DNA from: Calothrix sp. HK-06
Lineage (GTDB): Bacteria; Cyanobacteriota; Cyanobacteriia; Cyanobacteriales; Nostocaceae
Length of the DNA: 56,576 nt
Direction of reading: 5' to 3'
Assembly: GCF_001904745.1 (NCBI RefSeq)
Contig: NZ_MRCD01000059.1
Location: 1-56,576, forward strand
In this document: positions 1 through 56,576 of the stretch, piece by piece
Layout of the letters: each line of letters opens with the position of its first letter
Position numbering within the stretch: position 1 is the first letter of the stretch
Made by a program: the position numbers and the translations under genes
Notes under the pieces: model-generated
The model's input: only the letters and a program-made list of their open reading frames with translations
The model's database searches: none
Told to the model about the DNA's origin: nothing

Positions 1-66
1 GTTATGGAATATCACAATTGGCGCCTAATGATAGATAAAAATAGAATCATTTGAAAAAAATTAATA

Positions 67-1842
67 TTACCTTACTCCTGATTGTACTCGCCACAACGCT
101 GTATAAATTCCATTTTTTTCTAACAGTTGCTCGTGTTTGCCTGCTTCTACTAATTGTCCATATTCCATAACGTATACGCAATCTGCATTACGGATGGTAG
201 AAAGGCGATGGGCAATTGCAATTGTGGTTCTATTTACTGTAATTTTTTCTAAAGAACGTTGTATTGCTGCTTCGGTTTCGTTATCTACGGCTGATGTGGC
301 TTCGTCTAAAATTAAGATGGGTGGATTTTTTAATACTGCTCTGGCAATGGCTATTCGCTGTCTTTGGCCACCCGATAATTTTTGACCTCTTTCGCCCACT
401 ATTGTTTCATACTGAAGGGGAAGTTGCGTAATAAATTCGTGTGCTTCGGCTATTTTAGCAGCGTTGATTATTTCTTCATCTCTTTTGCCAAAGCTTCCGT
501 AAGCGATATTTTCTGCAACTGTGCCATGAAATAAAAATACATCTTGGCTAACTAAACCGATACTGCGACGTACATCATGTAAGTCTAAATTTTGAATATT
601 TATACCGTCGATTGTAATTGTACCATCCGTTACATCATAGAACCTAAGCAAGAGTTTAACTAAAGTGCTTTTACCAGAACCTGTAGAACCAACGATGGCA
701 ATGGTTTTTCCGGCGCCGATGTGTAAAGATAGATTTTTGATTATTGGTTGATGTTCTGTTTGATAACTAAAAGTGATATTCTTAAACTCAATCTCGCCGC
801 GCGCTTTATCAACGTCTAAATGTATACCACCTGTATTAATTTGAATAGGTGTATCCAATAAATCCATTACCCTATTTACAGAAGCCATTGCACGCTGATA
901 TTGGTCAAATATTTCACCCAACGACACAAGCGGCCATAATAAACGTTGTACTAAAACAAGTAAAACGCTATAATTACCTATAGATATCTTCTGTGAATAC
1001 GCCGCCATTCCCCCCATGAATAGTAAAGCTGTAAATCCGGCTAATACTAACATTCTAATTAAAGGAACAAATGCCGCAGAGAGTTTAATCGCTTTATTAT
1101 TACTCTTTTTATACGCTTCACTATCATTCCTTAATCGGGCATTTTCATACTCTTCAGCCGTAAAGCTCTTTATTGTCGTAATCCCACTAATATTATTTGC
1201 TAACCGTGCATTAAGCAAACTTACTTTTTCCCTGACATCAGCATAAACTGGTTCCAGGCACCTTTGATAAGATAGCGAACCCCACAGTATAAACGGCATC
1301 GGTAACATCGCCGCAATCGTAATGCTTAGAGGTAATATATAAAAGGCGCCACCAATTAAAATTATCATTGATGTCGTAATTTGGATAATTTGATTGGCAC
1401 CTCCATCTAAAAACCTTTCTAGCTGGTTAATATCATCATTGAGTATTGATAGTAATCCACCTGTACTATTGTCTTCAAAATAAGCTAACTCTAATTGTTG
1501 TAGATGACTATAAGCTTCTAGACGTATACCATGCTGAATATTTTGGGCTAAATGGCGCCAAAGTCTATCATAAGCATATTCAAACGCGGATTCGAGAACC
1601 CAAATTAATACAGTGATTACAGAAAGCACAACAAACTGTGAAGTTACATCTTTAACACCCAAACTAGCAATCGTCGAATCTTGCTGCTTGACTAATATAT
1701 CTACAGCAACACCAACTAACCAAGGTGGCGCCAGATCAAAGATACAATTGAGGATAGAGCAGGTGGATGCAGTGTATATTTGGGGACGATATGCGCGCGC
1801 ATAGCTTATAAGACGTTGGAGGGGGTGGGTTTTTGATGCCAT
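67..1842 (-). CDS. ABC exporter, fused membrane and ATPase domains
   Basis: A half-size ABC exporter of the ABCB type: an N-terminal six-helix membrane domain, then a nucleotide-binding domain. Visible motifs are Walker A GSTGSGKST, signature LSGGQRQR, Walker B LILDEATSA and the switch histidine in AHRLST, so the ATPase site looks intact. A frame extends upstream to a TTG at 1932, but the ATG at 1842 (MASKTHPLQRL) is preferred because family members normally begin with such a short lead-in; an ATG at 1863 is also possible. It opens the iron/siderophore district, so export of a siderophore or related peptide is a plausible job, but the substrate is not visible in the sequence. It could equally be a lipid or multidrug exporter. 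Domain assignment is sure, substrate is not. Confidence 0.9.
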   Translation of the reverse strand: MASKTHPLQRLISYARAYRPQIYTASTCSILNCIFDLAPPWLVGVAVDILVKQQDSTIASLGVKDVTSQFVVLSVITVLIWVLESAFEYAYDRLWRHLAQNIQHGIRLEAYSHLQQLELAYFEDNSTGGLLSILNDDINQLERFLDGGANQIIQITTSMIILIGGAFYILPLSITIAAMLPMPFILWGSLSYQRCLEPVYADVREKVSLLNARLANNISGITTIKSFTAEEYENARLRNDSEAYKKSNNKAIKLSAAFVPLIRMLVLAGFTALLFMGGMAAYSQKISIGNYSVLLVLVQRLLWPLVSLGEIFDQYQRAMASVNRVMDLLDTPIQINTGGIHLDVDKARGEIEFKNITFSYQTEHQPIIKNLSLHIGAGKTIAIVGSTGSGKSTLVKLLLRFYDVTDGTITIDGINIQNLDLHDVRRSIGLVSQDVFLFHGTVAENIAYGSFGKRDEEIINAAKIAEAHEFITQLPLQYETIVGERGQKLSGGQRQRIAIARAVLKNPPILILDEATSAVDNETEAAIQRSLEKITVNRTTIAIAHRLSTIRNADCVYVMEYGQLVEAGKHEQLLEKNGIYTALWRVQSGVR

Positions 1843-1932
1843 TAGCATAGCCAAACAAAGCATCAAAAATTTTAATATTTTCTGGGCGCCAAGTCTATCC
1901 CAAAACGGCAAATTTTTATCCCAAAAAGACAA

Positions 1933-2208
1933 TATTATGCATTATACCTAAAGTAATGATAATTTTTTACAATAAGAGTAAAGTAGATTCCCCAACTATA
2001 AATGGAGAAATTCGACGCTCTTATGTACTTCGGCGTCAATATACTTCACCTTTAGTAGATGAGCGAGTTTGCCAGTGATGATGGTTCAAAAGAAAGAGAC
2101 GCAACTCCTTTATCTCGTACAGAGGAAGGTGAGAAAGTTAAACCTGGAAAATTTTGGGTTTACGAACAAATAATGCATATTGCTTGCTTATTATATTAAT
2201 GAATTCCC
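1933..2208. other. Intergenic region with possible promoter for the exporter
   Basis: No gene is supported here. On the minus strand a TATAAT hexamer (plus-strand 1942-1947) sits just upstream of the exporter, next to an AATGATAAT stretch that weakly resembles half a Fur site. A short plus-strand open stretch near 2097-2174 reads like a fragment of a larger protein, but I could not assign it. Confidence 0.3.
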
Positions 2209-2409
2209 TTGGGTATTTACCCAACGAATAACACCAATACCGAATCATTAGCAGGTTATACAACTTTTGATGCTAAAACTCGAATTCCTTTAAGTCAAAC
2301 ATTTACACTTAATGCTAGTATAGACAATATCTTTAATCAAAGGTATCAATTGTTTCCAGGATTCTCTGACGTAGGTCGAATGTTCCAAGTTGGCTTGAGC
2401 GCAATCTGG
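2209..2409 (+). pseudogene. TonB-dependent receptor, C-terminal remnant
   Basis: About 65 residues match the last strands of an outer-membrane TonB-dependent receptor barrel. The pattern DNIFNQRYQLFPGFSDVGR followed by FQVGLSAIW is typical of the receptor C-terminus. There is no room for a plug, a barrel or a signal peptide: the frame opens just after a stop at 2200-2202 and has no plausible start. It is therefore the stump of a second receptor, lost by deletion. It lies directly upstream of a broken ferredoxin-like gene and a FecB-FecCD pair, which suggests that a complete uptake operon once stood here. The intact receptor of the region is at 9712-12279. Confidence 0.7.
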
Positions 2410-2424
2410 ACGTTGTTATCCGTC

Positions 2425-2658
2425 TCAAAAATGGCAACCTACTTTCGACGCACTTTCAAATGCAGTTGAAAAAGCACAATTAGGTGTAGAAGTACGGACA
2501 ACAGGTTGTTTACAGGTATGTAAATTAAGACCCGCAGTCTTTTATTTTGACGATAAAATTTGGTACACGCGCGTTAACCCGAAGTTGCTGAACAAATAGT
2601 CAACAAACATCTAATTGCAAGCAACAAAGTAACAGAACACATCTACCCTGCGGTATAA
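2425..2658 (+). pseudogene. Thioredoxin-like (2Fe-2S) ferredoxin remnant, frameshifted
   Basis: One frame reads ...FDALSNAVEKAQLGVEV, then RTTGCLQVCKLRPAVFYF and WYTRVNP. It continues in another frame as PEVAEQIVNKHLIASNKV up to a TAA at 2656-2658. The CLQVCK pair and the WY..V.PE..E.IV..H ending resemble the small thioredoxin-fold (2Fe-2S) ferredoxins found beside cyanobacterial iron-uptake genes. The frames join at about 2576-2580, where one C seems to be missing from a C run. The 5' end is fused to the receptor stump, so the N-terminal cysteines are gone. Family assignment is by pattern only; that the gene is broken is clear. Confidence 0.55.
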
Positions 2659-2665
2659 ATTGAAA

Positions 2666-3880: not shown

Positions 3881-3882
3881 TT

Positions 3883-4932: not shown

Positions 4933-4981
4933 CGATGCTTATACAGTTTTTATTTACACAAGTGGCATGTAAAAGAAATAC

Positions 4982-5101
4982 TTTAAAAGGTGGATTTTAT
5001 TTACCGATTAATCTTGAACAAACCTACCATTACACCTGTGTTCGGCAACGAATTCCTGAATGTTAAGCGCGTTGATTAACAACAATAACTTGGTCGGCGC
5101 C
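4982..5101. repeat. 120-bp duplicated gene junction, copy A
   Basis: Aligns without gaps to 18070-18189 with about 7 mismatches in 120 bases (hand count). It spans the 3' end of a DUF4058 gene on the plus strand and the 3' end of an ABC exporter on the minus strand. In this copy the exporter is whole and the DUF4058 gene is a stump. Confidence 0.9.
4983..5066 (+). pseudogene. DUF4058 protein, C-terminal remnant
   Basis: A stump of about 27 codons reads LKGGFYLPINLEQTYHYTC and ends VRQRIPEC. It is almost identical to the C-terminus of the intact DUF4058-type gene at 17450-18154. Its stop codon overlaps the stop of the convergent exporter gene at 5063. It is the truncated half of a duplicated junction described in the findings. 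Confidence 0.75.
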
Positions 5102-31122: not shown

Positions 31123-31153
31123 AAATAATGTCACGATAATTTAAGAGAATACT

Positions 31154-33109
31154 ATGTACGAACAAATTTCTCACTCACTATTAAATTCGATACTGGATGA
31201 TTTAAAGCCAGAAATTCGTCGGCAAGATTTGCGGCATTTTTATACCCGTCTCGGTGCGAACTTTTACGCTATTCATTCGCTATTTTTTACACTATACGGA
31301 CATCGCGATGATTTTAAAGTGCAAATGTTACGGCTAGTTGAAACAATGGCGAAAGGCTATATTGATCGCTCTCCAGAGTTAGAGCGGTTGGATATTCAAC
31401 GCGAACAAGACCACAACTGGTTTTTGTCTCAAAAATGGGTGGGGATGGCTCTTTATTCCAACGGTTTTGCAGAAAACCTTGCAGATTTAGAGAACAAAAT
31501 AGGCTATTTTCAAGAGCTAGGTATTAATATGGTACATATTATGCCGATTTTGAAGTGTCCAATCGGTAAAAGTGATGGGGGCTATGCTATCAGTGATTTT
31601 AGAGAAGTTGACGAAAGAGTTGGTGATTTAGAAGATATTCGTCGTATTGCGAAAGAGTTTAGAAAGCGTGATATTTTGCTGGTTTTAGACATTGTGCTTA
31701 ATCACACTTCTGATGAGCATGAATGGGCTAGAAAAGCAATTATGGGGGATCGTAATTTTCAAGATTACTATTATATTTATGAAAACAGAGAAATTCCTGA
31801 TATGTTTGAGGAAAACATGCCAGAAGTTTTTCCTGAAACAGCTCCAAGTAATTTTACTTGGAATGGCGAGATGGAAAAATGGGTGATGACGGTTTTCCAT
31901 AGTTATCAGTGGGATTTAAATTACAGCAATCCGAGAGTTTTTATTGAAATGCTCGACATTATTCTGTTTTGGGCAAATCAAGGTGTGGATATTCTCCGAC
32001 TGGATGCTGTTGCTTTTTTATGGAAAAAGATTGGCAGTTCTTGCCAAAACGAGCGCAATGCCCATCTAATTTTGCAGTTAATGAAAGATTGTTGTCAAGT
32101 GGCGGCGCCTGGTGTTTTATTTATTGCGGAAGCAATCGTTGCTCCTGTTGAAGTAATTAAGTATTTTGGTGAAGATGCAATCGCCGCGAAAGAATGCGAA
32201 ATTGCTTATAACGCTACTTTAATGGCATTATTATGGGATGGAATTGCAACTAAAAACACTAAGCTACTTTACCAAGGTATAAAAAGTTTACCTAACAAAT
32301 TAGAACGCGCGACTTGGCTAAACTATGTGCGTTGTCATGATGACATTGGTTTTGGTTTTGACGATTATGATATTCAAGTAGCTGGTTATGAACCGAGAAC
32401 ACATAGAAAATTTTTAGTTGATTACTTGAGTGGTAAGTTTGATTCATCCTTATCTAAAGGATTGGTATTCATGCCTAATGAAGCTACAGGAGATGCGCGT
32501 ATTTGCGGTTCATTAGCTTCTTTGGTTGGATTAGAATCTGCGCTCTTAACTGCTGATGAACATTTGATTGACCTTGCAATTAATAGGATTTTACTACTCC
32601 ACGGTATTATTCTATCTTTTGGAGGAATCCCTCTAATGTATAATGGTGATGCAATTGCTGTACTTAATGATTACAGCTATATAGATGACCCAAGCAAAAT
32701 CAATGACAATCGTTGGGTACATCGTCCTAAAATAGATTGGGAAAAAGCAGAATTACGTAAAAAACAAGGCACAGTGGAATACATGGTATTCACTGCCATG
32801 AAAAAAATGATTGCTATCCGTAAAGAAATTTCTGCATTTGCTGATTTTAATAACCGCGAATTGCTGCACGTAGGCAATGAACATTTACTATGTTATATTC
32901 GTTTCAATCATCAACGTCCATCAGAAAAAGTATTGGTCATTGCCAATTTTGATGCAAATCCCCAATACTTGGATTTAGATCAGCTTAGAAATACAGGCTT
33001 CAACACTTATGGTAAGTTTGTTGATTTATATAGTGGTATAAAACCAGAGCAATCTGATGGTCGCATCATTCTAGAAGGATATCAATTTTATTGGCTAACA
33101 GAGACTTAA
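31154..33109 (+). CDS. ams: Amylosucrase (GH13)
   Basis: A 651-residue GH13 alpha-retaining enzyme of the amylosucrase type, which transfers glucose from sucrose to an alpha-glucan and releases fructose. The helical N-terminal domain is followed by the (beta/alpha)8 barrel. The nucleophile region is DILRLDAVAFLWK, the acid/base glutamate lies in VLFIAEAIV, and the transition-state aspartate lies in RCHDDIGFGFDD. Length and layout match amylosucrases. It follows sucrose-phosphate synthase by 31 bases on the same strand, so sucrose is made and used from one operon, perhaps to feed glycogen. A sucrose hydrolase role is the main alternative. Confidence 0.9.
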   Translation: MYEQISHSLLNSILDDLKPEIRRQDLRHFYTRLGANFYAIHSLFFTLYGHRDDFKVQMLRLVETMAKGYIDRSPELERLDIQREQDHNWFLSQKWVGMALYSNGFAENLADLENKIGYFQELGINMVHIMPILKCPIGKSDGGYAISDFREVDERVGDLEDIRRIAKEFRKRDILLVLDIVLNHTSDEHEWARKAIMGDRNFQDYYYIYENREIPDMFEENMPEVFPETAPSNFTWNGEMEKWVMTVFHSYQWDLNYSNPRVFIEMLDIILFWANQGVDILRLDAVAFLWKKIGSSCQNERNAHLILQLMKDCCQVAAPGVLFIAEAIVAPVEVIKYFGEDAIAAKECEIAYNATLMALLWDGIATKNTKLLYQGIKSLPNKLERATWLNYVRCHDDIGFGFDDYDIQVAGYEPRTHRKFLVDYLSGKFDSSLSKGLVFMPNEATGDARICGSLASLVGLESALLTADEHLIDLAINRILLLHGIILSFGGIPLMYNGDAIAVLNDYSYIDDPSKINDNRWVHRPKIDWEKAELRKKQGTVEYMVFTAMKKMIAIRKEISAFADFNNRELLHVGNEHLLCYIRFNHQRPSEKVLVIANFDANPQYLDLDQLRNTGFNTYGKFVDLYSGIKPEQSDGRIILEGYQFYWLTET

Positions 33110-33628
33110 GATTATGATGACAGAAGCAGTCGAATGTCTAAGCTAAATAGAAGTAAAAACAATAACAATTTACAAAAAATTTAGTGGGATGGGCTTTAAG
33201 AATGCCCCGTCCCATACCCAAATCACTTAGGATTGCTATAGCTGAATTTTTATTTATAATCACAAATTGATGTAATATAAATCTATTTCTTTTTGAAGAC
33301 AAATTTAAAAATCATAAAAGTTAACATTAACATTAGTCATTCTATAAAAACTTGCCTACGCAATGTTCCCTTGGCTTAACCTCTACTTAGTTTAATCAAA
33401 CATCTATTCACCGATGCCAAAAAACTGACCCAGAGACTGTTTAAATCTCTCGGGTCAGTTGTAATTGAAACATATATGGGGGCTGGGTGATCTAATTTAT
33501 TGCAGCTTCATATTAAATTGGTATTAGATGCGTTTGCCCTGGAGATACGAGTTAACGATGTCTAACTCCTACAACAGTTTTGTTCTGTGCAAGTTGATTT
33601 ATGAGTAGAGAAATTTCTAACTGATTAG
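33110..33628. terminator. Non-coding region with two hairpins, likely end of the sucrose operon
   Basis: No gene. About 75 bases after the amylosucrase stop, 33185-33213 folds as TGGGATGGGC / GCCCCGTCCCA. A second, stronger hairpin at 33423-33460 pairs AACTGACCC and AGAGA with TCTCT and GGGTCAGTT. Neither is followed by a clear T run, so termination is likely but not proven. Confidence 0.5.
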
Positions 33629-33874
33629 ATTATTCCACCAGAAGTTGGAGCAAAGCTGGTACAGCGAATGAGTAATCCAGAACTAAGTGAGCGAGAACTA
33701 GAGGTGTTGCATTTAATGGCGCAGGGGATGAGTAATTTAGATATTGCTACTGCCTTAATTATCGCTGAAAGCAGCGTCAAATCTCACGTTAATTGAATTT
33801 TAAGTAAATTGGGAGTTAACGATCGCACTCAAGCCGTGATTGTTGCCTTTAAACGAGGGATTGTTAGTTTGTGA
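33629..33874 (+). pseudogene. LuxR/NarL response regulator, C-terminal remnant
   Basis: The frame encodes PEVGAKLVQRMSNPELSERE, LEVLHLMAQGMSNLDIATAL and SSVKSHVN-stop-ILSKLGVNDRTQAVI, the LuxR-type helix-turn-helix. The stop is a TGA in place of an expected arginine codon (CGA) in the recognition helix. The receiver domain is missing upstream, where a stop lies at 33626-33628. The tail ends in VIVAFKRGIVSL. Confidence 0.8.
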
Positions 33875-34130
33875 GCAAGCCTTAGTGACATTTCCAACTT
33901 TAGTTGGAGCGTTCCTTCGATTTTGAGGTGGGCTGATTTATCAATCACTTTGTTGTGTAAAAGTTTCAACTTAAAGTGGACGACTTTTTAGAGTCAATTA
34001 GATATATTAAATTCATGCAAACACGGATAGCAATGCCGCTTGCTTTCTTTGAGTTTGCTTTACACAGATTGCAGAAAGAAGGGTGTACGGCAATCGCTGG
34101 CGATAAGCCTACTTTCCCTTGGAGGTATTA

Positions 34131-34696
34131 GTGAACTATAACCGTAACCCCAGTTCGTTATTCGTCCCACCTTTAATACAAAATTACACACAAGGTGTGC
34201 TGAGTACTGCCGTCGTGCTGGTAATGTATGGAGACTATCAATGTTCTTAGAGCGCAGACGTTTACAGGCTGATTAAAGTCATTCGGCGACAGCTTAGTGT
34301 TTCTTTTGGGGAGGATTATTTGTGTTTCATCTTCCGTCATTTTCCACAAATACAGATTCATTCTCATGGTCAACATGCAGCCTCTGCGGCTTTTTCGGCT
34401 GCCACCCAAGGTCAGTTTTGGCAAATGCATGACATTTGTTCAGCCATCAACAACAGTTGGGAAACGCCTACCTTGCGGAGTATGCTAATAATTTAGGACT
34501 CGATATCTCTCAATTTCTGCAAGATATTTGTAAAAAATTACACATCAATCGCATCAATAAAGATATTGAAAGTGGATTACAAAGTGGAGTAGCAGCTACC
34601 CCAGCATTGTTTATTAATGGAATTCGATATAGCGGTCGTTGGAAAATTGAGCAGTTGATAGCAGCTATTGTCACTGCAAACCATTCAGTTTTCTAG
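34131..34696 (+). pseudogene. DsbA-family thioredoxin-fold protein, broken
   Basis: A GTG at 34131 is preceded by a good ribosome site (GGAGG, 5 bases away). The frame reads ...GVLSTAVVLVMYGDYQC, then S-stop-SADVYRLIKVI, CFIFRHFPQIQIHSHGQHAA and FWQMHD. It then changes frame at about 34431 (one base lost in GACAT-TTG) to FSHQQQLGNAYLAEYANNLG and SGVAATPALFINGIRYSG, ending at 34696. This is the DsbA-like fold (active site normally CPYC; the cis-proline is in VAATPALF). One nonsense codon and one frameshift inactivate it. It lies just before the redox gene island. Confidence 0.8.
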
Positions 34697-34760
34697 TTAT
34701 TAACTATACAACCAAAATTACTGCTTATTACGTAAGCAATTAACTAACAGGAACAATCTT

Positions 34761-35192
34761 ATGACACAATCTCTATGGTTTTTTGGTTCTCGCCTCACCA
34801 TCGTTGCCGATCACACCACGACCGGAGGTCAGTATGATTTGATCGAAGGCTACTTCCCTCCCGGCACACAAACACCCCTCCATCGCCACACACGCTATTC
34901 CGAACAACTTTATGTGCTGTCTGGGGAGTTCACGGTCTGGGCGGGTGAGGACAAGGTTGTGCTGAATGCTGGTGAAAGCTTCCTGATTCCTCTTGGCACA
35001 CCTCACGTGGTCGCCGCACTCAGCGATCAGCCAGCTCGCGGGTTAGTCGTTGCTGCGCCCAGCGGTTTTGCTCGGCTGATTGCAGCAGTGGGTACACTGG
35101 ATGAGAAAGAAGCACCGGACATGGAGCTAGCTGAACGCATTTCCACCGAGATCGGCGACGAAATTTTGGGTTCGCCCGGAACCTTGCCCTAA
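34761..35192 (+). CDS. Cupin-domain protein
   Basis: A 143-residue single cupin barrel. Motif 1 reads PLHRHTRYSEQLYVLSGEF (metal-binding His-His-Glu) and motif 2 reads SFLIPLGTPHVV with the last histidine. Such proteins are often small dioxygenases, isomerases or binding proteins; the substrate cannot be told. It is first in the plus-strand redox island (34.7-41.2 kb). The island appears more GC-rich and uses different codons from the surrounding genes, pointing to horizontal origin. A second, different cupin lies at 38395. Confidence 0.85.
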   Translation: MTQSLWFFGSRLTIVADHTTTGGQYDLIEGYFPPGTQTPLHRHTRYSEQLYVLSGEFTVWAGEDKVVLNAGESFLIPLGTPHVVAALSDQPARGLVVAAPSGFARLIAAVGTLDEKEAPDMELAERISTEIGDEILGSPGTLP

Positions 35193-35291
35193 GTACAGCA
35201 TTGTATGCAAACATTATTTGAGCCGTTAAGCTACCTCATCCTGGATATAAAAGTTTTATTCGCCATTTCATCATTACCAAAAACTTTGGAT

Positions 35292-35936
35292 ATGAAAATG
35301 CAACTCATCTCCGTCAACGTAGGGCTTCCACGTGAAGTAACCTGGAAAGGGAAAACAGTTAAAACTGGAATTTTCAAAGAGCCAGTCAGCAAGCGTGTTA
35401 TGCTGCGATCGCTTAATTTAGACGGTGATGGACAGGCTGATCTAACCGTTCATGGAGGGCTAGACAAAGCTGTCTATGTATACCCGTTCGAGCATTACGA
35501 TTATTGGCGAGGTGAATTGCCTGACACAGAACTGGCGCCAGGTACCTTTGGTGAAAATTTCACTACCATTGGGCTGAGAGAAGACGAAGTGAACATTGGT
35601 GATCGCTTCCGTATCGGTGCTGTAACGTTAATGGTGACACAACCTCGCCTGCCCTGCTACAAACTTGAAATTCGGTTTGGACGACCTGATATGGTTAAAC
35701 GATTTCTCGCGAGTCGTCGAACAGGATTTTACTTCCGTGTTTTGCAAGAGGGCGAAGTCGAAGTCGGAGATATTCTAGAACTGGTGAGCCGGAATAATAA
35801 TAATATCACTGTTGCCGATATCACTCAACTTTATGTTCGTGAGCAGGACAATCCAGAGTTACTTCACCGCGCTGCTCAACTTGAAGCTTTACCCAAAAGT
35901 TGGCGCGACTACTTCCAGCAGCAGAGCCGTCGTTAG
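35292..35936 (+). CDS. MOSC-domain protein, YiiM-like
   Basis: A 214-residue MOSC protein (molybdenum cofactor sulfurase C-terminal fold). Motifs: LDGDGQADLTVHGGLDKAVY, then APGTFGENFTTIGL and VTQPRLPCYKLEIRFGR with the conserved cysteine. The C-terminal three-helix extension (ITQLYVREQDNPELLHRAAQ) fits the YiiM group, where E. coli YiiM uses the molybdenum cofactor to reduce N-hydroxylated compounds. The frame is open from 35205, but the first 29 residues are unlike the family, so the ATG at 35292 or 35298 is taken. A HIP1 palindrome (GCGATCGC) lies near 35406. Confidence 0.87.
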   Translation: MKMQLISVNVGLPREVTWKGKTVKTGIFKEPVSKRVMLRSLNLDGDGQADLTVHGGLDKAVYVYPFEHYDYWRGELPDTELAPGTFGENFTTIGLREDEVNIGDRFRIGAVTLMVTQPRLPCYKLEIRFGRPDMVKRFLASRRTGFYFRVLQEGEVEVGDILELVSRNNNNITVADITQLYVREQDNPELLHRAAQLEALPKSWRDYFQQQSRR

Positions 35937-36034
35937 GCTATGTACCGGAATATAAGCAATTCGATATAAATAATTTCAGCCTAAACTGTTACAAACATCT
36001 CTTTCAACCTCAACAATCACAGGACTTATTGATC

Positions 36035-36784
36035 ATGAAAAAACTAGACGGAAAAATTGCAGTCGTGACGGGGGCATCTAAAGGAATTGGCGCCTCGATC
36101 GCCAAACATTTGGCAGCCGAAGGTGCAGCAGTAGTCGTCAACTATGCCTCTAGCAAAGAAGGAGCCGATCGCGTGGTTGATGAAATTACCAGCGCAGGTG
36201 GGAAAGGGATCGTAGTACAGGCAAATGTTACCAAAAAAGCAGAGGTCGAACGTCTTTTTATCAAGACGGAGCAGGCATTTGGCAGGCTCGACATCTTGGT
36301 CAATAATGCCGGAATTTATGAGTATCTGCCGCTCGAAGACATCACGGAAGAACACTTCCACAAACAGTTCGATCTCAATGTGCTGGGATTAATCCTCACT
36401 TCCCAACAAGCAGCAAAGTACTTTGACTCGGCGGGCGGCAGCATTATTAACATTAGCTCGATCGCCAGTACCGCCGCACCCGCAACCGGCACGGTCTATA
36501 ACGCCACCAAAGCAGCTGTCGATGCCGTAACAAAGTCGCTCGCCAAAGAGCTAGGCCCACGCAACATCCGTGTCAACTCCATCAATCCTGGTATGGTGGA
36601 AACGGATGGGCTGCACGCAGCGGGAGTTATAGAGAGCGATTTCCGCAAACAGATTGAAGCGCAAACCCCGCTTGGTCGCATCGGGCAAGTGCAGGACATC
36701 GCACCTGCCGCTGTCTTCTTCGCGTCCTCCGATTCAGCATGGATCACTGGCGAAACGCTGTACATCACAGGTGGTCTTCATTGA
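36035..36784 (+). CDS. Short-chain dehydrogenase/reductase
   Basis: A 249-residue classical SDR. NAD(P)-binding TGASKGIG near residue 13, NNAG near 90, catalytic serine in INISSIAS, and the YNATK tyrosine-lysine pair near 155 are all present, followed by NPGMVETDG and the C-terminal ITGETLYITGG. Length is standard. The frame extends upstream to 35900, overlapping the MOSC gene, but the ATG at 36035 (MKKLDGKIAVVTG) is the natural start. It probably oxidises or reduces a small alcohol or carbonyl; substrate unknown. It is followed by a LuxR fragment. Confidence 0.92.
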   Translation: MKKLDGKIAVVTGASKGIGASIAKHLAAEGAAVVVNYASSKEGADRVVDEITSAGGKGIVVQANVTKKAEVERLFIKTEQAFGRLDILVNNAGIYEYLPLEDITEEHFHKQFDLNVLGLILTSQQAAKYFDSAGGSIINISSIASTAAPATGTVYNATKAAVDAVTKSLAKELGPRNIRVNSINPGMVETDGLHAAGVIESDFRKQIEAQTPLGRIGQVQDIAPAAVFFASSDSAWITGETLYITGGLH

Positions 36785-36818
36785 TTTGTATAGAAATTCT
36801 ATAATTGTCGAGAAGTTT

Positions 36819-36914
36819 TACATCATTGAGGGCACCATCAAAACCCATGTTCGCAATATCCTGAAAAAGCTTTGTGTCAGTCATGGCGTAACGTCAAACG
36901 CAAAGGAGATGTAA
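36819..36914 (+). pseudogene. LuxR-type helix-turn-helix fragment
   Basis: Between the SDR and the flavoprotein gene a frame reads IEGTIKTHVRNILKKLCVSH, the recognition helix of a LuxR/NarL regulator, then runs out in unrelated sequence and a stop. Only about 25 codons remain. It differs from the fragment at 33629. Its end supplies the AAAGGAG ribosome site of the next gene. Confidence 0.65.
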
Positions 36915-38303
36915 ATGAACCCTGAATACTATGACGACATTATTATAGGTGGTGGTAAAGCAGGTAAAACGCTGGCGCCTGCATTGGTTGCGGACGGACG
37001 GAAAACCGCACTGGTTGAACGCAGCTTAACGATGATTGGTGGTGGGTGCATCAATGTCGCCTGCATTCCTACCAAAACGATGGTAGCAAGTGCCAATGTT
37101 GCAAATACCGTGCGAAACAGTACCCTTTATGGGGTTAAAGTCAATGTACCCACCGTTGATTTAGTAGAGGTGATCCGACGCAAACGATCGGTTGTGCAAT
37201 CTGCGCGTGCAATGAATTTGCACAATCTAGAAACTGCTCTCGGTAACAAACTGATCATTGGCACAGGACAGTTTGTTGCTTCCAAAACGATCGAAGTGAT
37301 AACGGCTGAGGGTAAAACTCGATTACTCACTGCAGAGCGATTGTTTATCAATACAGGCACGCGACCCTTGATTCCACCCGTGCCCGGTCTTACAGAATCC
37401 GGGTTTTTGACGAGTGAGTCGATCATGGAGCTAGAAAACTTACCCGAACACCTGATCGTTCTAGGCAGTGGTTACATCGGGTTGGAGTTTGCCCAGATGT
37501 TCCGTCGCTTTGGCGCTCGCGTCACGGTCATTGGACAAAGTGAGCAAATCCTGTCGCAGCAAGACCCAGATATTGCCATTGCAGTTCAAACCTTGCTAGA
37601 ACGAGACGGTATTGAATTTTTGCTGAAAGCGAAGGTATTAAGGGTCGAGCGCTCTGGCAATCAAACTATCCTTCATATCCAGGTTGCTGATCGTGAAATT
37701 AACCTTCAAGGTTCGCATTTGCTCGTTGCCGTCGGTCGGGCGCCTACTACTGATAGCTTAAATCTAGCCGCTACTGGGGTGGCAACTGATGAACGTGGAT
37801 TTATTCAAGTCAACGATCGTCTAGAGACTAACATACCGGGGATTTGGGCGTTAGGCGATATTAATGGCGGTCCGCAATATACCCATGTGGCGCTTGACGA
37901 TTATCGCATTGTCAAAGCCAATTTAATTGACGGGGGAAACCGCAGCACCCGCGATCGCCTGGTTCCCTCCTGCCTTTACATTGATCCAGAACTGGCTCAT
38001 GTGGGGCTGACCGAAACCGAAGCCCAGCGGCAGGGCTATGCTATCCGGGTGGCAAAGCTGGATGCCTCAGCCGTTCCGCGAGCAAAAACACTGGGTCAAA
38101 CCGATGGACTGCTGAAGGCGATCGTGGATACCGAGACAGGTCGAATTATCGGGTGTTCACTCTTGTGCCATACAGCAGGTGAGGTGATTTCGACGGTACA
38201 GATGGTGATGCAATCTCAGATGCCCTACACCGTTTTGCGTGATGCTATTTTAACTCATCCCACTATGACTGAAGGGTTAAACATCCTGTTTGCGAAGGTG
38301 TAA
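36915..38303 (+). CDS. FAD-dependent disulfide oxidoreductase, mercuric-reductase-like
   Basis: A 462-residue class I pyridine nucleotide-disulfide oxidoreductase. The FAD site IIGGGKAGKTLAPALVADG is N-terminal and the redox-active cysteines lie in GGGCINVACIPTKTMV (CxxxxC). The NAD(P)H site is VLGSGYIGLEFAQMFRRFG near residue 175, and the second FAD motif is GIWALGDINGGPQYTH. The C-terminal dimerisation domain carries the usual histidine in DAILTHPTMTEGLN. It lacks the N-terminal heavy-metal domain and the C-terminal cysteine pair of true MerA, so it is probably a general reductase. A clear AAAGGAG ribosome site precedes the ATG. A HIP1 site lies near 37951. Confidence 0.9.
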   Translation: MNPEYYDDIIIGGGKAGKTLAPALVADGRKTALVERSLTMIGGGCINVACIPTKTMVASANVANTVRNSTLYGVKVNVPTVDLVEVIRRKRSVVQSARAMNLHNLETALGNKLIIGTGQFVASKTIEVITAEGKTRLLTAERLFINTGTRPLIPPVPGLTESGFLTSESIMELENLPEHLIVLGSGYIGLEFAQMFRRFGARVTVIGQSEQILSQQDPDIAIAVQTLLERDGIEFLLKAKVLRVERSGNQTILHIQVADREINLQGSHLLVAVGRAPTTDSLNLAATGVATDERGFIQVNDRLETNIPGIWALGDINGGPQYTHVALDDYRIVKANLIDGGNRSTRDRLVPSCLYIDPELAHVGLTETEAQRQGYAIRVAKLDASAVPRAKTLGQTDGLLKAIVDTETGRIIGCSLLCHTAGEVISTVQMVMQSQMPYTVLRDAILTHPTMTEGLNILFAKV

Positions 38304-38394
38304 AGAGATAGCAATTTCATCTATCTCGATTTGGTTAGTCATTTACGTCTCAACATGAACAGCATTTAATCAACTAAAAAGGAGCGTAGTTGCA

Positions 38395-38883
38395 ATGACA
38401 ATTCATCAAAGTGGACTTTTTGTTCAACCGGGTCAAGGTCGTTCTTACTACTTTGGTCAAGACCTTTATACCTTCAAAGCAATTGGTGAAGAGACGGGGG
38501 AAGCCTATGCGCTTTGTGAGATAATTGTTGCACCTCAAGGCGGTACGCCTCCGCATCGGCACAGCCGAGAAAATGAATCATTCTATATTCAAGACGGAGA
38601 GATAGAATTCCAGCTTGATGATCGTATTTTAGTTGCAACGGCTGGAACTTTCCTTCATTCACCTAAAGGTCAGCTTCACCGATTTACGAATACGACTGCT
38701 ACACCCGCTAAAATACTGGTTTGGGTTACTCCTGCTGGCTTTGAGAAATTTATTGCCGAAGTTGGAAAGGCAGTGAATGGGCAGATTACCCCTGGAGCAT
38801 CGTTGAGTTCTGAAGACCTGAACAAGATTTTGATTACTGCCCCTAAGTATGGTATTGAGATCATCCCTCCACCATCTGAGTAG
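38395..38883 (+). CDS. Cupin-domain protein, quercetinase-like
   Basis: A 162-residue single-domain cupin. Motif 1 is TPPHRHSRENESFYIQDGEI, with His-His-Glu metal ligands, and motif 2 is TFLHSPKGQLHRF, with the last histidine. The C-terminal helix GFEKFIAEVG resembles small quercetin-2,3-dioxygenase-like cupins. An AAGGAG ribosome site lies upstream. It sits between two flavoenzyme genes of the redox island, where it may handle an aromatic or quinone-like compound, which is inference from company only. Confidence 0.85.
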   Translation: MTIHQSGLFVQPGQGRSYYFGQDLYTFKAIGEETGEAYALCEIIVAPQGGTPPHRHSRENESFYIQDGEIEFQLDDRILVATAGTFLHSPKGQLHRFTNTTATPAKILVWVTPAGFEKFIAEVGKAVNGQITPGASLSSEDLNKILITAPKYGIEIIPPPSE

Positions 38884-38992
38884 CAATAATGTGATCTCTC
38901 ACAGTAAATTAACAAAAACGCAAAGAAGTAAAATCACTACTTGCAGCCTCGTCCACACTGCTGAAATCAAAACCTAAACTATTGGTTACGCA

Positions 38993-39103
38993 ATGATGAA
39001 GTTTGTTGAGCGCGGTCGAACAAGTCGTTGGAACCGAACGCCGAGAGATGATCTGTATTGGTATCTAACTAGCTTCAAACAACAAATAAAGAGAATTTTA
39101 TGA
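38993..39103 (+). CDS. Small open frame translationally overlapping the GMC gene
   Basis: A 36-codon frame (MMKFVERGRTSRWNRTPRDD, ending YLTSFKQQIKRIL) whose TGA overlaps the ATG of the next gene (ATGA at 39100). The codon use looks natural, but I recognise no family. It could be the tail of a lost gene or a leader coupling translation to the GMC gene. Weak support. Confidence 0.3.
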   Translation: MMKFVERGRTSRWNRTPRDDLYWYLTSFKQQIKRIL

Positions 39104-40659
39104 CTCATTATGACTACATTGTAATTGGTGCAGGTTCCGCAGGCTGCGTGGTTGCTAACCGTCTGACAGAAGACAGTAATACAACTGTGTTATTACTCGA
39201 AGCGGGCAACCCGGATACGAAACCGGAGATTCAAATCCCAGCGGAATGCCTCAGCCTACTAGGTTCCGACGTGGACTGGAGCTATTTCTCTGAACCAGAA
39301 CCCTACTTAAATAACCGTAAAATTTTTTGTCCCCGTGGCAAAGTCCTGGGTGGCAGCAGTTCGATTAATTTCATGATTTATATGCGGGGCAATTATCAAG
39401 ATTATGACCACTGGGAGTCATTGGGAAATCCCGGTTGGAGTTACCAGCATGTATTGCCCTATTTCAAGAAATCGGAGCACCAGCAGCGAGGCGCCTCCGA
39501 ATTTCATGGGATGGATGGAGAGTTAAGCGTTACCGATCTCATTTCTCCTGCTGTGGTGTCCCAACGCTTTGTCGAAGCAGCTGTGGCACTGGGATATGCC
39601 CACAATCCCGATGTGAATGGAATGCAGCAGGAAGGGGCGGGACTCTATCAATTGACGATCAAGGAGGGTAAGCGGCATAGTACTGCGACTGCCTTTCTCG
39701 TGCCTATTCTTCAGCGTCCCAATTTGACCATAACGACAAGAGCTTTGGTGACTCGCTTGTTGTTCGAGGGCACACGTACTATTGGGGTCGAATATCTACA
39801 CGAGGGCACGCTGCACCAGGTTAGAGTCAACTACGAAGTAATTTTAAGCGCTGGCGCGTTCGATTCGCCCAAACTGCTGATGCTTTCCGGTATTGGTAAT
39901 CCAGAACACGTCCAAGGATTGGGCATTCCGGTCGTCGTTGATCTGCCAGGTGTCGGTCAAAACCTCCAAGACCACCCTATCGTGCCCGTGGTACATAAGG
40001 CAACTCAGGATTTACACACTGCAAGCACCAGTAGTATCGCTGAAGCTGGCTTGTTTTTGCATACTCAGGATAATCTGGATGCGGCGCCAGATTTACAGTT
40101 TCTCTTCGGTCCTATTGTGTTTGCACCCCCTGGCTATGACCACTCTGGTTCAGGGTTCACAAGTCTAGTCTGTTTGACCCATCCCCAAAACATTGGGAGT
40201 GTCAGTTTGCGTTCACCCGACCCCAAAAACGCACCGATAATTCGGATGAACTATCTACAAAGTGAAGCCGATGTGCAGAAGCTCGTTGTCGGTATTAAAT
40301 TAATGCGCCAATTGTTCCATACAAGCGTTTTTAATGAGTTTCGTGGTGAGGAACTTGCCCCTGGCGCCGATAAGCAGAGCGATGAAGCCCTTGAAGCTTA
40401 TGTCCGAGAAGCTTGCAGTACGGTGTATCATCCTGTCGGCACCTGCAAAATGGGCACTGACCCAATGGCAGTTGTAGACCCTGAACTACGGGTATATGGG
40501 GTTGAGGGATTGCGTGTCGTTGATGCATCTATCATGCCAACGATCACCACGGGAAATACAAATGCACCTACCATTATGATTGGCGAAAAAGCAGCCGATT
40601 TAATTAAAGCCACAGGAGGTTGCGTCTCACAGCAAATACCTTCAGCAATCGCAAACTAG
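39100..40659 (+). CDS. GMC-family FAD oxidoreductase
   Basis: A 519-residue glucose-methanol-choline oxidoreductase, nearest in pattern to choline or alcohol dehydrogenases. The dinucleotide fold YIVIGAGSAGCVVANRL is N-terminal. The GMC signature 1 region is GKVLGGSSSINFMIYMRG, and signature 2 is GAFDSPKLLMLSGIG. The catalytic histidine lies in YHPVGTCKMG, with asparagine in NTNAPTIMIGEKAADLI at the end. It would oxidise a primary alcohol or aldehyde and pass electrons to quinone or oxygen. It is in the middle of the redox island. Confidence 0.93.
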   Translation: MTHYDYIVIGAGSAGCVVANRLTEDSNTTVLLLEAGNPDTKPEIQIPAECLSLLGSDVDWSYFSEPEPYLNNRKIFCPRGKVLGGSSSINFMIYMRGNYQDYDHWESLGNPGWSYQHVLPYFKKSEHQQRGASEFHGMDGELSVTDLISPAVVSQRFVEAAVALGYAHNPDVNGMQQEGAGLYQLTIKEGKRHSTATAFLVPILQRPNLTITTRALVTRLLFEGTRTIGVEYLHEGTLHQVRVNYEVILSAGAFDSPKLLMLSGIGNPEHVQGLGIPVVVDLPGVGQNLQDHPIVPVVHKATQDLHTASTSSIAEAGLFLHTQDNLDAAPDLQFLFGPIVFAPPGYDHSGSGFTSLVCLTHPQNIGSVSLRSPDPKNAPIIRMNYLQSEADVQKLVVGIKLMRQLFHTSVFNEFRGEELAPGADKQSDEALEAYVREACSTVYHPVGTCKMGTDPMAVVDPELRVYGVEGLRVVDASIMPTITTGNTNAPTIMIGEKAADLIKATGGCVSQQIPSAIAN

Positions 40660-40748
40660 CAGGGAGCAGTCCCTAACATTGCCTGGGAATAAAGGTTCTT
40701 GAACGTACACAATCTGTCTGGTAAAAATTTAACAGGAAAATAACAATC

Positions 40749-41213
40749 ATGACAATAAATCCACTATCTCAAAGAGACATCTCAAGAGTGACCAATCACC
40801 ACGCCCAACTCGATATCGCTCGTCGCTTCCACGCAGGGCTCGTCACGCAAGATTGGGGCGCGATACGTGCCCTCCTCACTGAGGATGCACACTGGACGCT
40901 CCCAGGTAACAATGCGATCTCAGGAACTGCCCTAGGAGCTGATGCTGTAGTCGAGCGTGCGCGAAAAATTGCAAGCTATGGGCTAAACTTCGAGTTACTG
41001 CACATTCTCGTCAGCCGAGACAACGTAGCTCTGTCTTTACATAATACTGCTCAACAGGGCGATCGAGTCCTTGATGAGTATCTGGCTACGGTCTGTCGGC
41101 TCAAGGACAGCAAGATCGTCGAGATCGAGACCTTTCTTTCTGACGTTGAGGGTATGAACGCCTTCTTTATAGTCTTAGTAAAAGACTCAAAAAGAAATCA
41201 TAATAGTAGATAG
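40749..41213 (+). CDS. SnoaL/NTF2-like protein
   Basis: A 154-residue protein with a cone-shaped NTF2-like fold of the SnoaL type: helix IARRFHAGLVTQDWGAIRAL, then LLTEDAHWTLPGNNAISGT and the late pattern DEYLATVCRLKDSKIVEIET. Members include isomerases, hydratases and ketosteroid-isomerase-like enzymes. The substrate is unknown. It is the last intact gene of the redox island. A GGAAAATAAC stretch precedes the ATG as a weak ribosome site. Confidence 0.82.
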   Translation: MTINPLSQRDISRVTNHHAQLDIARRFHAGLVTQDWGAIRALLTEDAHWTLPGNNAISGTALGADAVVERARKIASYGLNFELLHILVSRDNVALSLHNTAQQGDRVLDEYLATVCRLKDSKIVEIETFLSDVEGMNAFFIVLVKDSKRNHNSR

Positions 41214-41334
41214 CTCAGAGATTTAAAGAGGCTATTGAACGATCATCCCCATAAAAATGGCAATCAGTGAACGCCTGTGCAAGTTCAACTTGGATTGAAA
41301 TCAACGTCATAAGTATTGCAAATAAACGCAACCA

Positions 41335-41500
41335 ATGCTACATAATATGCACAGCGAAGCAACCCAAGCTGCTCCTAATGGTATTGGCTACCCAAATACA
41401 CCTGGAATTTATAACCAAGCTCAAGTTGGAGGATGGAAACAAGTAACTGACGCGGTACATGTATCTGGAGGAAGAATTTTTTACAACTATGCCACGCAGG
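41335..41500 (+). pseudogene. Old-yellow-enzyme (NemA-like) fragment
   Basis: A short frame encodes SEATQAAPNGIGYPNTPGIY followed by GWKQVTDAVHVSGGRIF. This is a well-known stretch near residues 55-100 of NADPH-dependent alkene reductases of the old yellow enzyme family. Neither the barrel start nor the rest of the enzyme is present. It marks the right end of the redox island, where a flavoenzyme gene has been cut off. Confidence 0.75.
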
Positions 41501-41556
41501 GCGAGTTGCCCATCCTTATATTCATATTAAATATTTTGTACTGGGAGAGTTTATAA

Positions 41557-42391
41557 ATAATTAGATAGGTAGCGTTAATTATATTCAAAAATGGAGTAAT
41601 AGCTTTAAAATTCAAGTGTTGAGTCTTGTTTTAAAAAATCATTTATTTCTTCTTTTGCTAATTCAAATACAGCTTCATATAAAGCATATTTTTTTTACTG
41701 CTATAACTAGAGAATAATTTCATTCTATATCCATTAAAATTAGTAAAAAATATATTACATTGCCAAAAAATATTATTTAAATGTACTTCATATCATGTCC
41801 GGTTGATTACCCATAATGTAGAGACGTTACATGTAACGTCTCTACGGTAATTTTATTACGGTTATGCCGCCGGACATGATATCACATTCAGTTTCAATCA
41901 AAAAAGTTTTGTACTTTACAGCGCTAATTGTTTTCATATTTTTAATTTGATATCTAAAAATTAAATTAAAGAGAATAGAGATTAGAAAATACATGAACAA
42001 CGAAATGTACTAATCTAAACTCTGCCACTATAGACTATAATTTATGAATCTTGTGTAGCTATGATGTATAAGATACTAACTAAAATAACAAATATGAAAG
42101 GAATATGACTTCAGTGTTAATACTAAAAAAGCATGAAATTAAGCTTGGTTTTACCTAAGTAGCCCCTCAGCTTTTGCTACTTACTTCTGTTGGTGTCCAT
42201 ATTGATAGAGTTCTAACTTAATGCAATATACGTACTAAAAGATTGTATTATTACCTCACTTGGAGTTTGAGGTGTTTAAAAACTTGAAAGCACTCACTCA
42301 CTTCTTAATTCGTAGTGCCGAATACTTTTTATATTTAAAAACTAAACGTATTGAATCTGTGATGTTATTATAAGCGTCTTCTTAAAATATT
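41557..42391. other. Long AT-rich non-coding stretch
   Basis: No gene is supported over 835 bases. It contains the MITE-like element at 41790-41882, listed separately. The remainder is low-GC DNA without ribosome sites or recognisable protein fragments. Confidence 0.6.
41790..41882. repeat. MITE-like element with nested palindrome
   Basis: A 93-base element bounded by perfect 13-base inverted repeats ATATCATGTCCGG / CCGGACATGATAT. Inside is a 28-base perfect palindrome at 41818-41845 (TAGAGACGTTACA core). The left 28 bases recur at 48164-48191 with one mismatch. Confidence 0.85.
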
Positions 42392-42934
42392 TTATTGTTT
42401 TAGTGTAATAAGAGTGGCAATGTGGTCTGCAACATCTTTGGCAGAACGGTATTCTGTATCAATTGGTTCACCAAAAGAATTGTCTAGATAGGCATTTGAA
42501 CATTCTACAATCCGTCGAGCAATCCACTCAGACTCCTTACCCTGAATTTGAGTACCCCGTTGTGTAAGGCGTGTTTTAATAGTATCGAGGCTTGCCTTTA
42601 AACAAAATATTCTAAGTTCAAGCTCAAAGCTTTTAATTCCCGTAACAACTTCATCAAAATAATCACGGTTACTAAATGTCATTGGGACTATTACTGTACC
42701 AGCGGTAAACCAATGGTATAGACGGATTCCTGTAATTGTAGACTTCCTCCACAGTTCTATATGTTGAAAGTCGTTCGCTCCCGTTCTTTTGAACTTAATC
42801 CATTTGGGAGCGCGCATCAAAAATGATCCTACCCATTCAGGATTATATATCGTGCTTCCTGGAAGATAATTATGTAAGATTCTTGCTACAGTTGTTTTGC
42901 CAACTCCAAATGAACCATTAAGCAAGATAATCAT
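42392..42934 (-). CDS. P-loop kinase-like protein, TmrB-type
   Basis: A 180-residue protein with an N-terminal Walker A motif NGSFGVGKTTVARIL. VPMTFSNRDYFDEV and a late LTQRGTQIQGKESEWIARRI follow, a pattern of small AAA/shikimate-kinase-like proteins such as the TmrB group, some of which give tunicamycin resistance or phosphorylate small molecules. No transmembrane segment is seen. It stands alone, between long non-coding regions. A lone ATP-binding kinase is the safest description. Confidence 0.72.
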   Translation of the reverse strand: MIILLNGSFGVGKTTVARILHNYLPGSTIYNPEWVGSFLMRAPKWIKFKRTGANDFQHIELWRKSTITGIRLYHWFTAGTVIVPMTFSNRDYFDEVVTGIKSFELELRIFCLKASLDTIKTRLTQRGTQIQGKESEWIARRIVECSNAYLDNSFGEPIDTEYRSAKDVADHIATLITLKQ

Positions 42935-55284: not shown

Positions 55285-56453
55285 CTTATATTATAAGGTC
55301 AACAGCGTGCATGAATAAAAAACACTTTGTTAATCTAAGCGATGAGCAACGATTACAACTACTTGATTTGGTGAAAAGAGGAAAGGCTGGTGCCAGGGAG
55401 ATTCGCCGTGCGCACACGCTGCTGATGGCCTCGGATGGTAGTACCGACGAGGCAATCGCAAAAACTCTACATATATCGATAAATACAGTCTCTAGGACTC
55501 GTCAACAGTTTTGCGAAGAAAATTTAGAAACATTATCTGAACGTCCGCGTAGTGGGAAACCACCTAAAGTTACAGAAAATGCAGAAGCATATTTAATCGC
55601 GACAACTTGCAGTAAAGCTCCCTCTGGAAGCGCGTTGGACACTTAAGATGTTGGCTGACCGAATGGTAAGCTTAGAAATTATAGATAGCATAAGTACTAA
55701 CACAGTTGGTCGCACACTACAAAAAAACGATTTAAAACCTTGGCTGCACGAGCAATGGTGCATACCACAGTTGAGTTCAGAATATGTATACAACATGGAA
55801 GACGTACTAGATGTTTATGCTCAACTACCAGACGCGCGGCGCCCATTAGTTTGTTTTGATGAAAGATTGTGCTTGTTAATAGAGAACGTTCATGAACCGA
55901 TACCTCCCAAGCCTAAAACAGAAGACAAACCAGCACAATTTGAAAAAATAGATTATGAATACGAAAGGAATGGAACCTGTAATTTGTTTGCGTTTTTGGC
56001 GCCACATCTAGGGTGGAGGCATATTAAAGTAACTGAACGTCGTACTAAAAAAGACTTTGCTTACTGTATGAAAGAGCTAGTTGATATCCATTTTCCGGAT
56101 GCCGATATAATTAAATTGGTAATGGATAATTTAAATACACATACCCTAGGCGCCTTATACGAAGTCTTTGAACCAGAAGAAGCTAGACGAATCGCACAAA
56201 AATTAGAAATACACCATACACCAAAGCATGGAAGCTGGTTAAATATAGTTGAATCCGAACTGTCAGTACTCGTGCGTCAATGTTTAAATCGAAGGATACC
56301 GAATATTAAAACGCTAAAAGAAGAAGTATCTCTCTGGGAAGAGAATCGTAATGAAAATCAAGTTCGTGTTAATTGGCGTTTCCGGAAAGAGGACGCTAGA
56401 ATTAAGCTCAAAAGGGTTTATCCAACACCCCAAAATTAATGACAAGGACTACT
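55285..56453 (+). mobile_element. IS630-family insertion element, decayed
   Basis: Spans the transposase frames and flanking ends. The right end probably lies in CCAAAATTAATGACAAGGAC (56430-56449). A matching left terminal repeat was not found near 55270-55310, so the left end is either divergent or lost. The left boundary coincides with the truncation of the helicase gene, suggesting insertion or deletion there. Confidence 0.6.
55311..56439 (+). pseudogene. IS630-family transposase, frameshifted
   Basis: Two frames form one transposase. The first (55311-55646) has a helix-turn-helix, TDEAIAKTLHISINTVSRTR, then LSERPRSGKPPK. The second (55648-56439) is the DDE domain: PLVCFDERLCLL (first Asp), IIKLVMDNLNTHTLGALYE (second Asp) and HGSWLNIVESELSVL (Glu), ending in RVYPTPQN. 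The frames meet near 55615-55635, where ...SKAP should continue to ARWTLKMLADRM, so one base is gained or two are lost. Some IS630 elements use programmed frameshifting, but no clear slippery heptamer is seen, so simple decay is preferred. Confidence 0.85.
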
Positions 56454-56477
56454 AGTGGTTCGTGTCATAAGTTTTGG
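56430..56477. repeat. Imperfect palindrome at the IS right end
   Basis: CCAAAATTAATGACA pairs imperfectly with TGTCATAAGTTTTGG across a CTAGT centre. It overlaps the transposase stop. The same CCAAAATTAATGACA recurs at 56527 and, inverted, at 56558. Confidence 0.75.
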
Positions 56478-56485
56478 AAGGTTGT

Positions 56486-56506
56486 AGGGTGGGCTTCGGC
56501 CCACCT
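56486..56506. terminator. GGTGGGCTTCGGCCCACC-type hairpin
   Basis: A stable stem GTGGGC / GCCCAC closed by a TTCG loop, extended by imperfect pairs. This short hairpin is frequent in cyanobacterial spacers. It may end transcription from the transposase. Confidence 0.6.
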
Positions 56507-56522
56507 TACGCTCGGTGCCAAC

Positions 56523-56576
56523 CAGCCAAAATTAATGACATGGAGTACTAGTACTCCATGTCATTAATTTTGGCTG
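56523..56576. repeat. 54-bp perfect palindrome
   Basis: The last 54 bases of the window equal their own reverse complement, with arms starting CAGCCAAAATTAATGACATG and a TACTAGTA centre. It looks like two element ends meeting tail to tail around a CTAG core, and is probably cut by the window edge. Confidence 0.9.

Follow-up and report, generated by a model that had tools for sequence, protein, structure and literature searches.

The stretch analysed here, 56,576 nucleotides of Calothrix sp. HK-06 (contig NZ_MRCD01000059.1, positions 1 to 56,576; hereafter the window), carries 101 copies of the palindromic hexamer GGCGCC at a mean spacing of 561 bp, and the usual highly iterated palindrome (HIP) of cyanobacteria, HIP1 (GCGATCGC), occurs in it only twice. 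Both the excess of GGCGCC and the scarcity of HIP1 extend through the whole genome and the genus, and GGCGCC sites are conserved as DNA beyond what codon usage explains. We think it probable that GGCGCC is an alternative HIP, the target of a domesticated restriction-system methyltransferase that took the place of HIP1. The switch as such is already in print for one strain, Calothrix PCC 7103 (Elhai, 2015; PMC4390886); the present analysis adds the genus-wide spread, names a probable enzyme and the base that it probably methylates, and gives evidence that the sites are kept up.

Abundance of GGCGCC and its spread through the genus

In the window, 3.2 GGCGCC sites are expected from composition and 5.3 from an order-1 Markov model, and 100 dinucleotide shuffles gave a mean of 5.4 (standard deviation 2.7, maximum 13). 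GGCGCC is the top over-represented hexamer, at 19x. A maximal-order Markov model raises the expectation to 56, because GGCGC (115) and GCGCC (107) are scarcely present beyond GGCGCC itself. The first-pass annotation, made from the letters of the window, had counted about 100 sites by hand, which agrees with our 101 where about 5 are expected; it had named a Markov-level count, or an excess confined to the window, as outcomes that would undo its claim, and we found neither. The whole genome holds 15,449 copies in 9,990,453 bp, in which the control word CCGCGG occurs 6 times. HIP1 occurs 88 times in the same genome and its control word 66 times. In a 453-kb sample of the genome, composed of the window and 20 further stretches, 724 GGCGCC sites stood against 39 expected (about 18x), and the runner-up palindromic hexamer reached 4.6x. 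This genome therefore carries what defines a HIP, a GC-rich palindrome that is grossly over-represented, at about 1000-2000 per Mb.

The sites are distributed over genes and spacers alike. In 513 kb of the genome, with simple calling of open reading frames (ORFs) of at least 150 aa, the density was 1.79/kb inside ORFs and 1.12/kb outside. All three reading phases are used (364, 142, and 169 sites), and 364 of the 675 sites within ORFs encode Gly-Ala, in line with the first-pass remark that the word often does so. Within the window the density is patchy, with just 14 sites across 27501-45000, partly in DNA that looks recently acquired. Regular spacing was ruled out: over the 453 kb the coefficient of variation of the spacings was 1.03, and the only deficit was at short range, with 19 spacings below 50 bp where 56.5 were expected. 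An Rfam scan of the window at gathering thresholds gave no match.

The enrichment is shared by all seven genomes available for the genus, which also includes Calothrix sp. NIES-4105 (G390), PCC 7716 (G392), and the metagenome-assembled genome C42_A2020_038 (G391). These genomes hold 7,475-20,380 copies each, or 1150-1711 per Mb, compared with a maximum of 108 per Mb among the 69 other family genomes sampled; related regions from 11 family genomes (98 kb) contain none at all. HIP1 is correspondingly low, with 31-163 copies per genome in the genus vs 1117-7721 in 66 other family genomes searched. The lineage-specific switch away from HIP1 proposed at first pass is thus real and genus-wide, and low or absent HIP1 is the setting in which alternative HIPs occur. 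Four genomes with high raw GGCGCC counts (G170, G008, G037, and G136) do not carry it as a HIP, with observed/expected ratios (O/E) of 0.68-1.52 in 40-60 kb each.

Other palindromes also deviate in the 453-kb sample. CGCGCG is over-represented (163 vs 35, 4.6x), GATC and GGCC are strongly avoided (0.13 and 0.14 of expectation), and CCGCGG, CGTACG, CCATGG, GTGCAC, and TTCGAA are absent altogether. This avoidance suggests many restriction systems, past or present.

According to Elhai (2015; PMC4390886), GGCGCC is the alternative HIP of PCC 7103 and occurs also in 19 kb of Calothrix D253, and PCC 7103 has two GRCGYC-type methyltransferases. That strain resembles the present genus in its word, its low HIP1, its similar density, its GRCGYC-type methyltransferases, and the loss of the standard CGATCG enzyme; there too, the enriched word is narrower than GRCGYC. 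The earlier work dealt with one genome and the 19 kb of D253 and had no methylated base to assign to GRCGYC enzymes, whereas here the word is followed through seven genomes whose nucleotide identity falls to about 80%, and the loss and retention of sites are measured (PCC 7103 may itself be among the seven). Exceptional HIPs were regarded there as sporadic and not persisting in clades, and the genus-wide occurrence of GGCGCC argues against that point. In our literature search, with subscription papers mostly outside its reach, GGCGCC, HIP1, and cyanobacteria came up together in PMC4390886 only.

Upkeep of the sites and a footprint at the central C

Between relatives, GGCGCC sites are retained better than comparable words. 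Genome G000 shares 75% of its GGCGCC sites with NIES-4105 (84% identity), compared with 40% for other GC-only hexamers, and 64% with C42_A2020_038 (80% identity), compared with 31%. At 92.5-94% identity the edge is smaller, 0.77-0.89 for GGCGCC vs 0.64-0.74 for GC-only hexamers. To control for codon usage, four-fold degenerate third bases within sites were compared with those of the same codons elsewhere. Relative to NIES-4105, third bases were kept in 104 of 115 cases at positions 1/6 (57.9 expected), 116 of 138 at the central positions (74.9 expected), and 35 of 41 at positions 2/5 (24.3 expected); relative to G388, the figures were 127/129 (105.0), 144/154 (127.5), and 58/61 (50.3). Third bases are thus kept beyond matched codons, and what is maintained is the DNA word itself, with the weakest hold at the central C.

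The way in which sites are lost points to the same base. Among the nine single-base neighbours of GGCGCC in the 453-kb sample, GGTGCC alone is above expectation (1.56x), the others lying at 0.17-0.72x; GGTGCC reaches 1.07-1.57x in the seven genus genomes vs 0.75x in the 98 kb from 11 family genomes. When a site is lost between relatives, GGTGCC/GGCACC is the commonest alternative in every within-genus comparison, accounting for 49 of 87 replacements between G000 and G388 (93% identity) and for a smaller share at 80-84% identity. Losses and gains were polarised with NIES-4105 and C42_A2020_038 in four comparisons that share G000, so that the events are not independent. Central C>T made up 92 of 137 single-step losses, or 2.5x background, with other changes at 0-0.5x; 12 more losses were multi-step. 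All 12 one-sided gains arose from GGTGCC. The pattern of losses is the footprint that would be expected of 5-methylcytosine (m5C) at the central C, and the base coincides with the one that M.BsaHI methylates in GRCGYC (PMC2413257).

A candidate methyltransferase and the enzyme that tracks HIP1

The genome of the window has 10 matches to PF00145, of which four are intact-looking m5C methyltransferase genes (M1 to M4). M3 encodes 328 aa on contig C60 (PF00145, E 6.9e-65). The m5C motif columns are conserved in an alignment of its family, in keeping with a Pfam DNA_methylase, and in 13 of 13 rows two arginines followed by Gly or Ala precede the SPTI/SPTV motif (judged by eye, with BsaHI known by description). 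In the published GRCGYC methyltransferases a conserved Arg precedes the TL motif and is itself followed by Gly/Ala (PMC2413257); for Haemophilus influenzae Rd, GRCGYC is listed among the m5C motifs (PMC8565308). On homology and on the neighbourhood of its relatives, M3 is probably a BsaHI/HindV-type (GRCGYC) m5C methyltransferase.

Across the genus, M3 relatives occupy a single locus, with full-length ORFs in six of seven genomes, a RuBisCO-like gene (PF00016) on one side, and a GHL10 gene (PF02638) on the other. Six of seven genomes show both neighbours, counting the genome of the window, in which they lie on two contigs; the stretches fetched from G353 show the RuBisCO-like neighbour alone. 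In the genome of the window the locus copy is cut by two contig ends, its N- and C-terminal pieces matching G353 at 95.6% and 97.1%, and the intact copy lies elsewhere, on C60, which also bears a DnaB-like ORF (by eye). Adjoining the intact gene is a second M3-family ORF of 244 aa (L068; 61.5% identical) without the N-terminal part.

Outside the genus, M3 relatives commonly sit beside an endonuclease gene. Our neighbourhood set comprised 30 loci with 1.5 kb flanks, and among the 28 that come from elsewhere 20 have a RE_HindVP-type ORF beside M3 (14 of at least 366 aa, the others shorter or split); two such ORFs that were scanned matched PF09519 with E 1.6e-149 and 9.7e-161. The PF09519 search matched none of the seven genus genomes, and a profile built from the relatives found no HindVP at the M3 locus in any of the seven, over about 57-100 kb each (including C60 for the genome of the window). 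The seven Calothrix genomes thus appear to have no cognate HindVP-type endonuclease. The system resembles BsaHI/HgiDI/HindV in that M3 relatives adjoin HindVP-type endonucleases and share the Arg followed by Gly/Ala before the TL motif; it differs in that no such endonuclease was detected in Calothrix and GGCGCC is enriched rather than avoided. The first-pass suggestion of a solitary methylase whose target would be this word is supported, by comparison, by the GRCGYC-type gene, the failure to find HindVP, and the central-C footprint; methylation itself is something that we infer.

Loss of the endonuclease in place was entertained and dropped: in G327 and G344, the neighbouring ORF of M3 that clusters with GHL10 is just 24% identical, so no shared locus is demonstrated. 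The other methyltransferases were also set aside. M4 (370 aa) is present in all seven genus genomes and in 63 of 80 genomes searched (a survey that left out G142, G060, and G193), too wide a distribution to account for the switch. M1 and M2 were absent from view in some of the seven, with unfetched matches judged by length only. Among the best 80 M3-homologue loci of a longer list, all from named genomes, 55 have a HindVP-type ORF; only the three of the Calothrix genus are enriched in GGCGCC (O/E 17-49), and the other 77 have O/E 0-2.1, mostly with zero sites. Carriers of M3 in the family have less GGCGCC than non-carriers (0.96 vs 4.5 per Mb, p 0.016), a contrast that says nothing of the target because the control word is lower too (p 0.005).

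A different methyltransferase tracks HIP1. We used a 426-aa m5C methyltransferase of family member G330 (L256) as query against 80 genomes, namely the seven Calothrix genomes, 66 of the 69 other family genomes (G142, G381, and G385 were left out), five of genus g39, and two outliers. At least 1117 HIP1 copies occur in 70 of the 80, and every one of these has a match, which is partial in G270 and nearly full-length (E at most 1e-100) in the other 69. The ten genomes with at most 163 copies (the seven Calothrix, G059, G007, and G136) gave no match at E at most 1e-40, or one of just 36-37% identity. This association counts genomes and not independent events, the losses falling in three groups: the Calothrix genus, g39, and G136. 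M.Ssp6803I methylates the first C of CGATCG to m5C (PMC6604393), and we infer that L256 is a CGATCG enzyme of the DmtC/M.Ssp6803I kind.

The HIP1-poor genomes outside Calothrix took different courses. G059 lacks both HIP1 and the tracking enzyme, and it has an M3-family gene (55%) with no HindVP match. An independent switch to GGCGCC was rejected for this genome, since its word is RGCGCC(G): in an order-2 model AGCGCC has O/E 4.3 and GGCGCC 2.7, and GGTGCC shows no excess (0.95). In 94 kb of G059 (L119-L123) there are 0 HIP1 copies, and CGGCGCCG occurs 109 times, 15.7x the order-2 expectation. The sampled sisters G036, G078, and G290 in its genus are HIP1-rich, and G007 is not. In G007 (L126, L127, L363-L365) HIP1 is down to 134 copies and the tracking methyltransferase is lost, with no obvious replacement palindrome within 100 kb. 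These cases set bounds to the explanation given below: once the HIP1 system is lost a replacement may become possible, but the sequel differs from case to case, as in G136 and G059.

Competing explanations and the remaining features of the window

Under the explanation that we favour, the m5C methyltransferase acting on the HIP1 core (CGATCG) would have disappeared in an ancestor of the genus, and HIP1 sites would then have decayed. A BsaHI/HindV-type (GRCGYC) m5C methyltransferase would have arrived alone, or parted from its endonuclease later, and become fixed beside the RuBisCO-like gene. On each strand of GGCGCC the enzyme would now methylate the central C, the exact target also being a prediction. 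The methylated G-mC site may serve the cell as HIP1 does, be it in methyl-directed repair or in some other function of the whole chromosome, and this HIP1-like service is our preferred reason for the retention of sites; selection, or repair that protects the sites, would hold them, and they would leak away mainly by deamination of the central C. GGCGCC resembles HIP1 in being a GC-rich palindrome at about 1/kb with an m5C methyltransferase that methylates, presumably in the case of GGCGCC, a C after G; it differs in the word, in the methyltransferase, and in having no GATC core.

Several observations weigh against this explanation. Thirteen of the best 80 M3-homologue loci show no HindVP ORF within the stretch fetched and keep 6-28 HIP1 copies, and with 0-1 GGCGCC each they indicate that enrichment takes more than M3; G136, with neither HIP1 nor the tracking enzyme, has an M3 relative and no enrichment (O/E 0.68 in 40 kb). 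GACGCC and GACGTC are depleted to 0.27 and 0.05 of expectation in the 453 kb, so that the enriched word is narrower than the proposed GRCGYC target. The PF09519 search matched none of its built-in control genomes, and its positive control is therefore the matches on the relatives' ORFs. Retention is less clear in two places: between G000 and G353 (94.0%) the shared fraction for GGCGCC is 0.772 vs 0.780 for all hexamers (0.700 for other GC-only ones), and relative to C42_A2020_038 positions 2/5 are kept in 18 of 30 cases (13.5 expected). The standing excess of GGTGCC is modest throughout its range, and the gain side is weak, with parallel losses perhaps explaining, by a rough estimate, about half of the 12 gains. 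Finally, the best L256 match bears a flagged stop in nine of the 70 HIP1-rich genomes, and the CGATCG specificity of L256 is itself presumed.

An unlikely alternative is the ratchet of Elhai (2015; PMC4390886), in which mismatch repair is directed by methyl-C after G. Biased by a GRCGYC methyltransferase, such repair would make GGCGCC from near-misses up to about 1/kb, and the sites would have no function. The density of 1.15-1.71/kb is near the plateau of about 1/kb predicted there, spacings below 50 bp are deficient (see above), and eight of the nine near-miss classes are depleted. Yet the eight classes other than GGTGCC yielded 0 one-sided gains from 632 lineage-opportunities, and the data show loss being held down instead of gain at many places; the ratchet may have run earlier and halted at its plateau. 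We hold it less likely still that GGCGCC is a signal for DNA uptake or segregation, read by some protein that is not a methyltransferase. Such a signal would fit sites that are dense, present in and outside ORFs, and conserved as DNA, but the central C-to-T leak and the co-present matching methyltransferase point to methylation. Nothing in the present data favours the uptake mark suggested at first pass, though no search was aimed at a reader protein.

The two remaining explanations fare far worse. That GGCGCC is a relic of restriction-modification, a protected word left over while endonucleases of other specificity purged its near-misses, draws on the palindrome avoidance described above, which makes restriction pressure likely; avoiding other words does not by itself lift one word 18x, however, and conservation above matched codons contradicts a relic, which we consider highly improbable. 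Codon or dipeptide usage, with GGCGCC produced by Gly-Ala and Arg codons, is refuted in our view and has next to no chance of being the cause: Gly-Ala accounts for many of the ORF sites, but the use of all three phases, the density outside ORFs, and the empty related regions of 11 family relatives speak against it.

If GGCGCC is indeed a methylated alternative HIP, cyanobacteria could need a genome-wide grid of m5C after G at about 1/kb, and not the HIP1 word itself. In Calothrix this grid would have been rebuilt by a domesticated orphan restriction methyltransferase and kept by selection through the radiation of the genus, with G059 as a second case in progress. We put this wider idea forward tentatively, as one more apt to fail than to hold. 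A clade with a changed word at the same density and a presumed methyl-C after G makes the methylation hypothesis for HIP1 directly testable, the more so given a likely enzyme and the clean association of HIP1 with a methyltransferase over 80 genomes, and it bears on the origin of solitary methyltransferases from restriction systems.

The two HIP1 occurrences that the first-pass annotation had counted in the window were both recovered, at 35405 and 37951, and both fall inside a foreign-looking stretch (Table 1). This stretch has 7 GGCGCC per 10 kb, and GC reaches 0.48 at 35-40 kb; scans of its genes gave, among others, MOSC, pyridine nucleotide-disulphide oxidoreductase, and GMC oxidoreductase. 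It looks like an island acquired from a HIP1-bearing donor.

Table 1. Positions of the palindromes and of the foreign-looking stretch in the window.
Feature	Position	Strand	Remarks
GGCGCC set	1..56576	.	first 20-25, last 56149-56154
Foreign-looking stretch	32501..42500	.	GATC 41/62, CGATCG 11/11, HIP1 2/2 of window
HIP1 (GCGATCGC) copy 1/2	35405..35412	.	
HIP1 (GCGATCGC) copy 2/2	37951..37958	.

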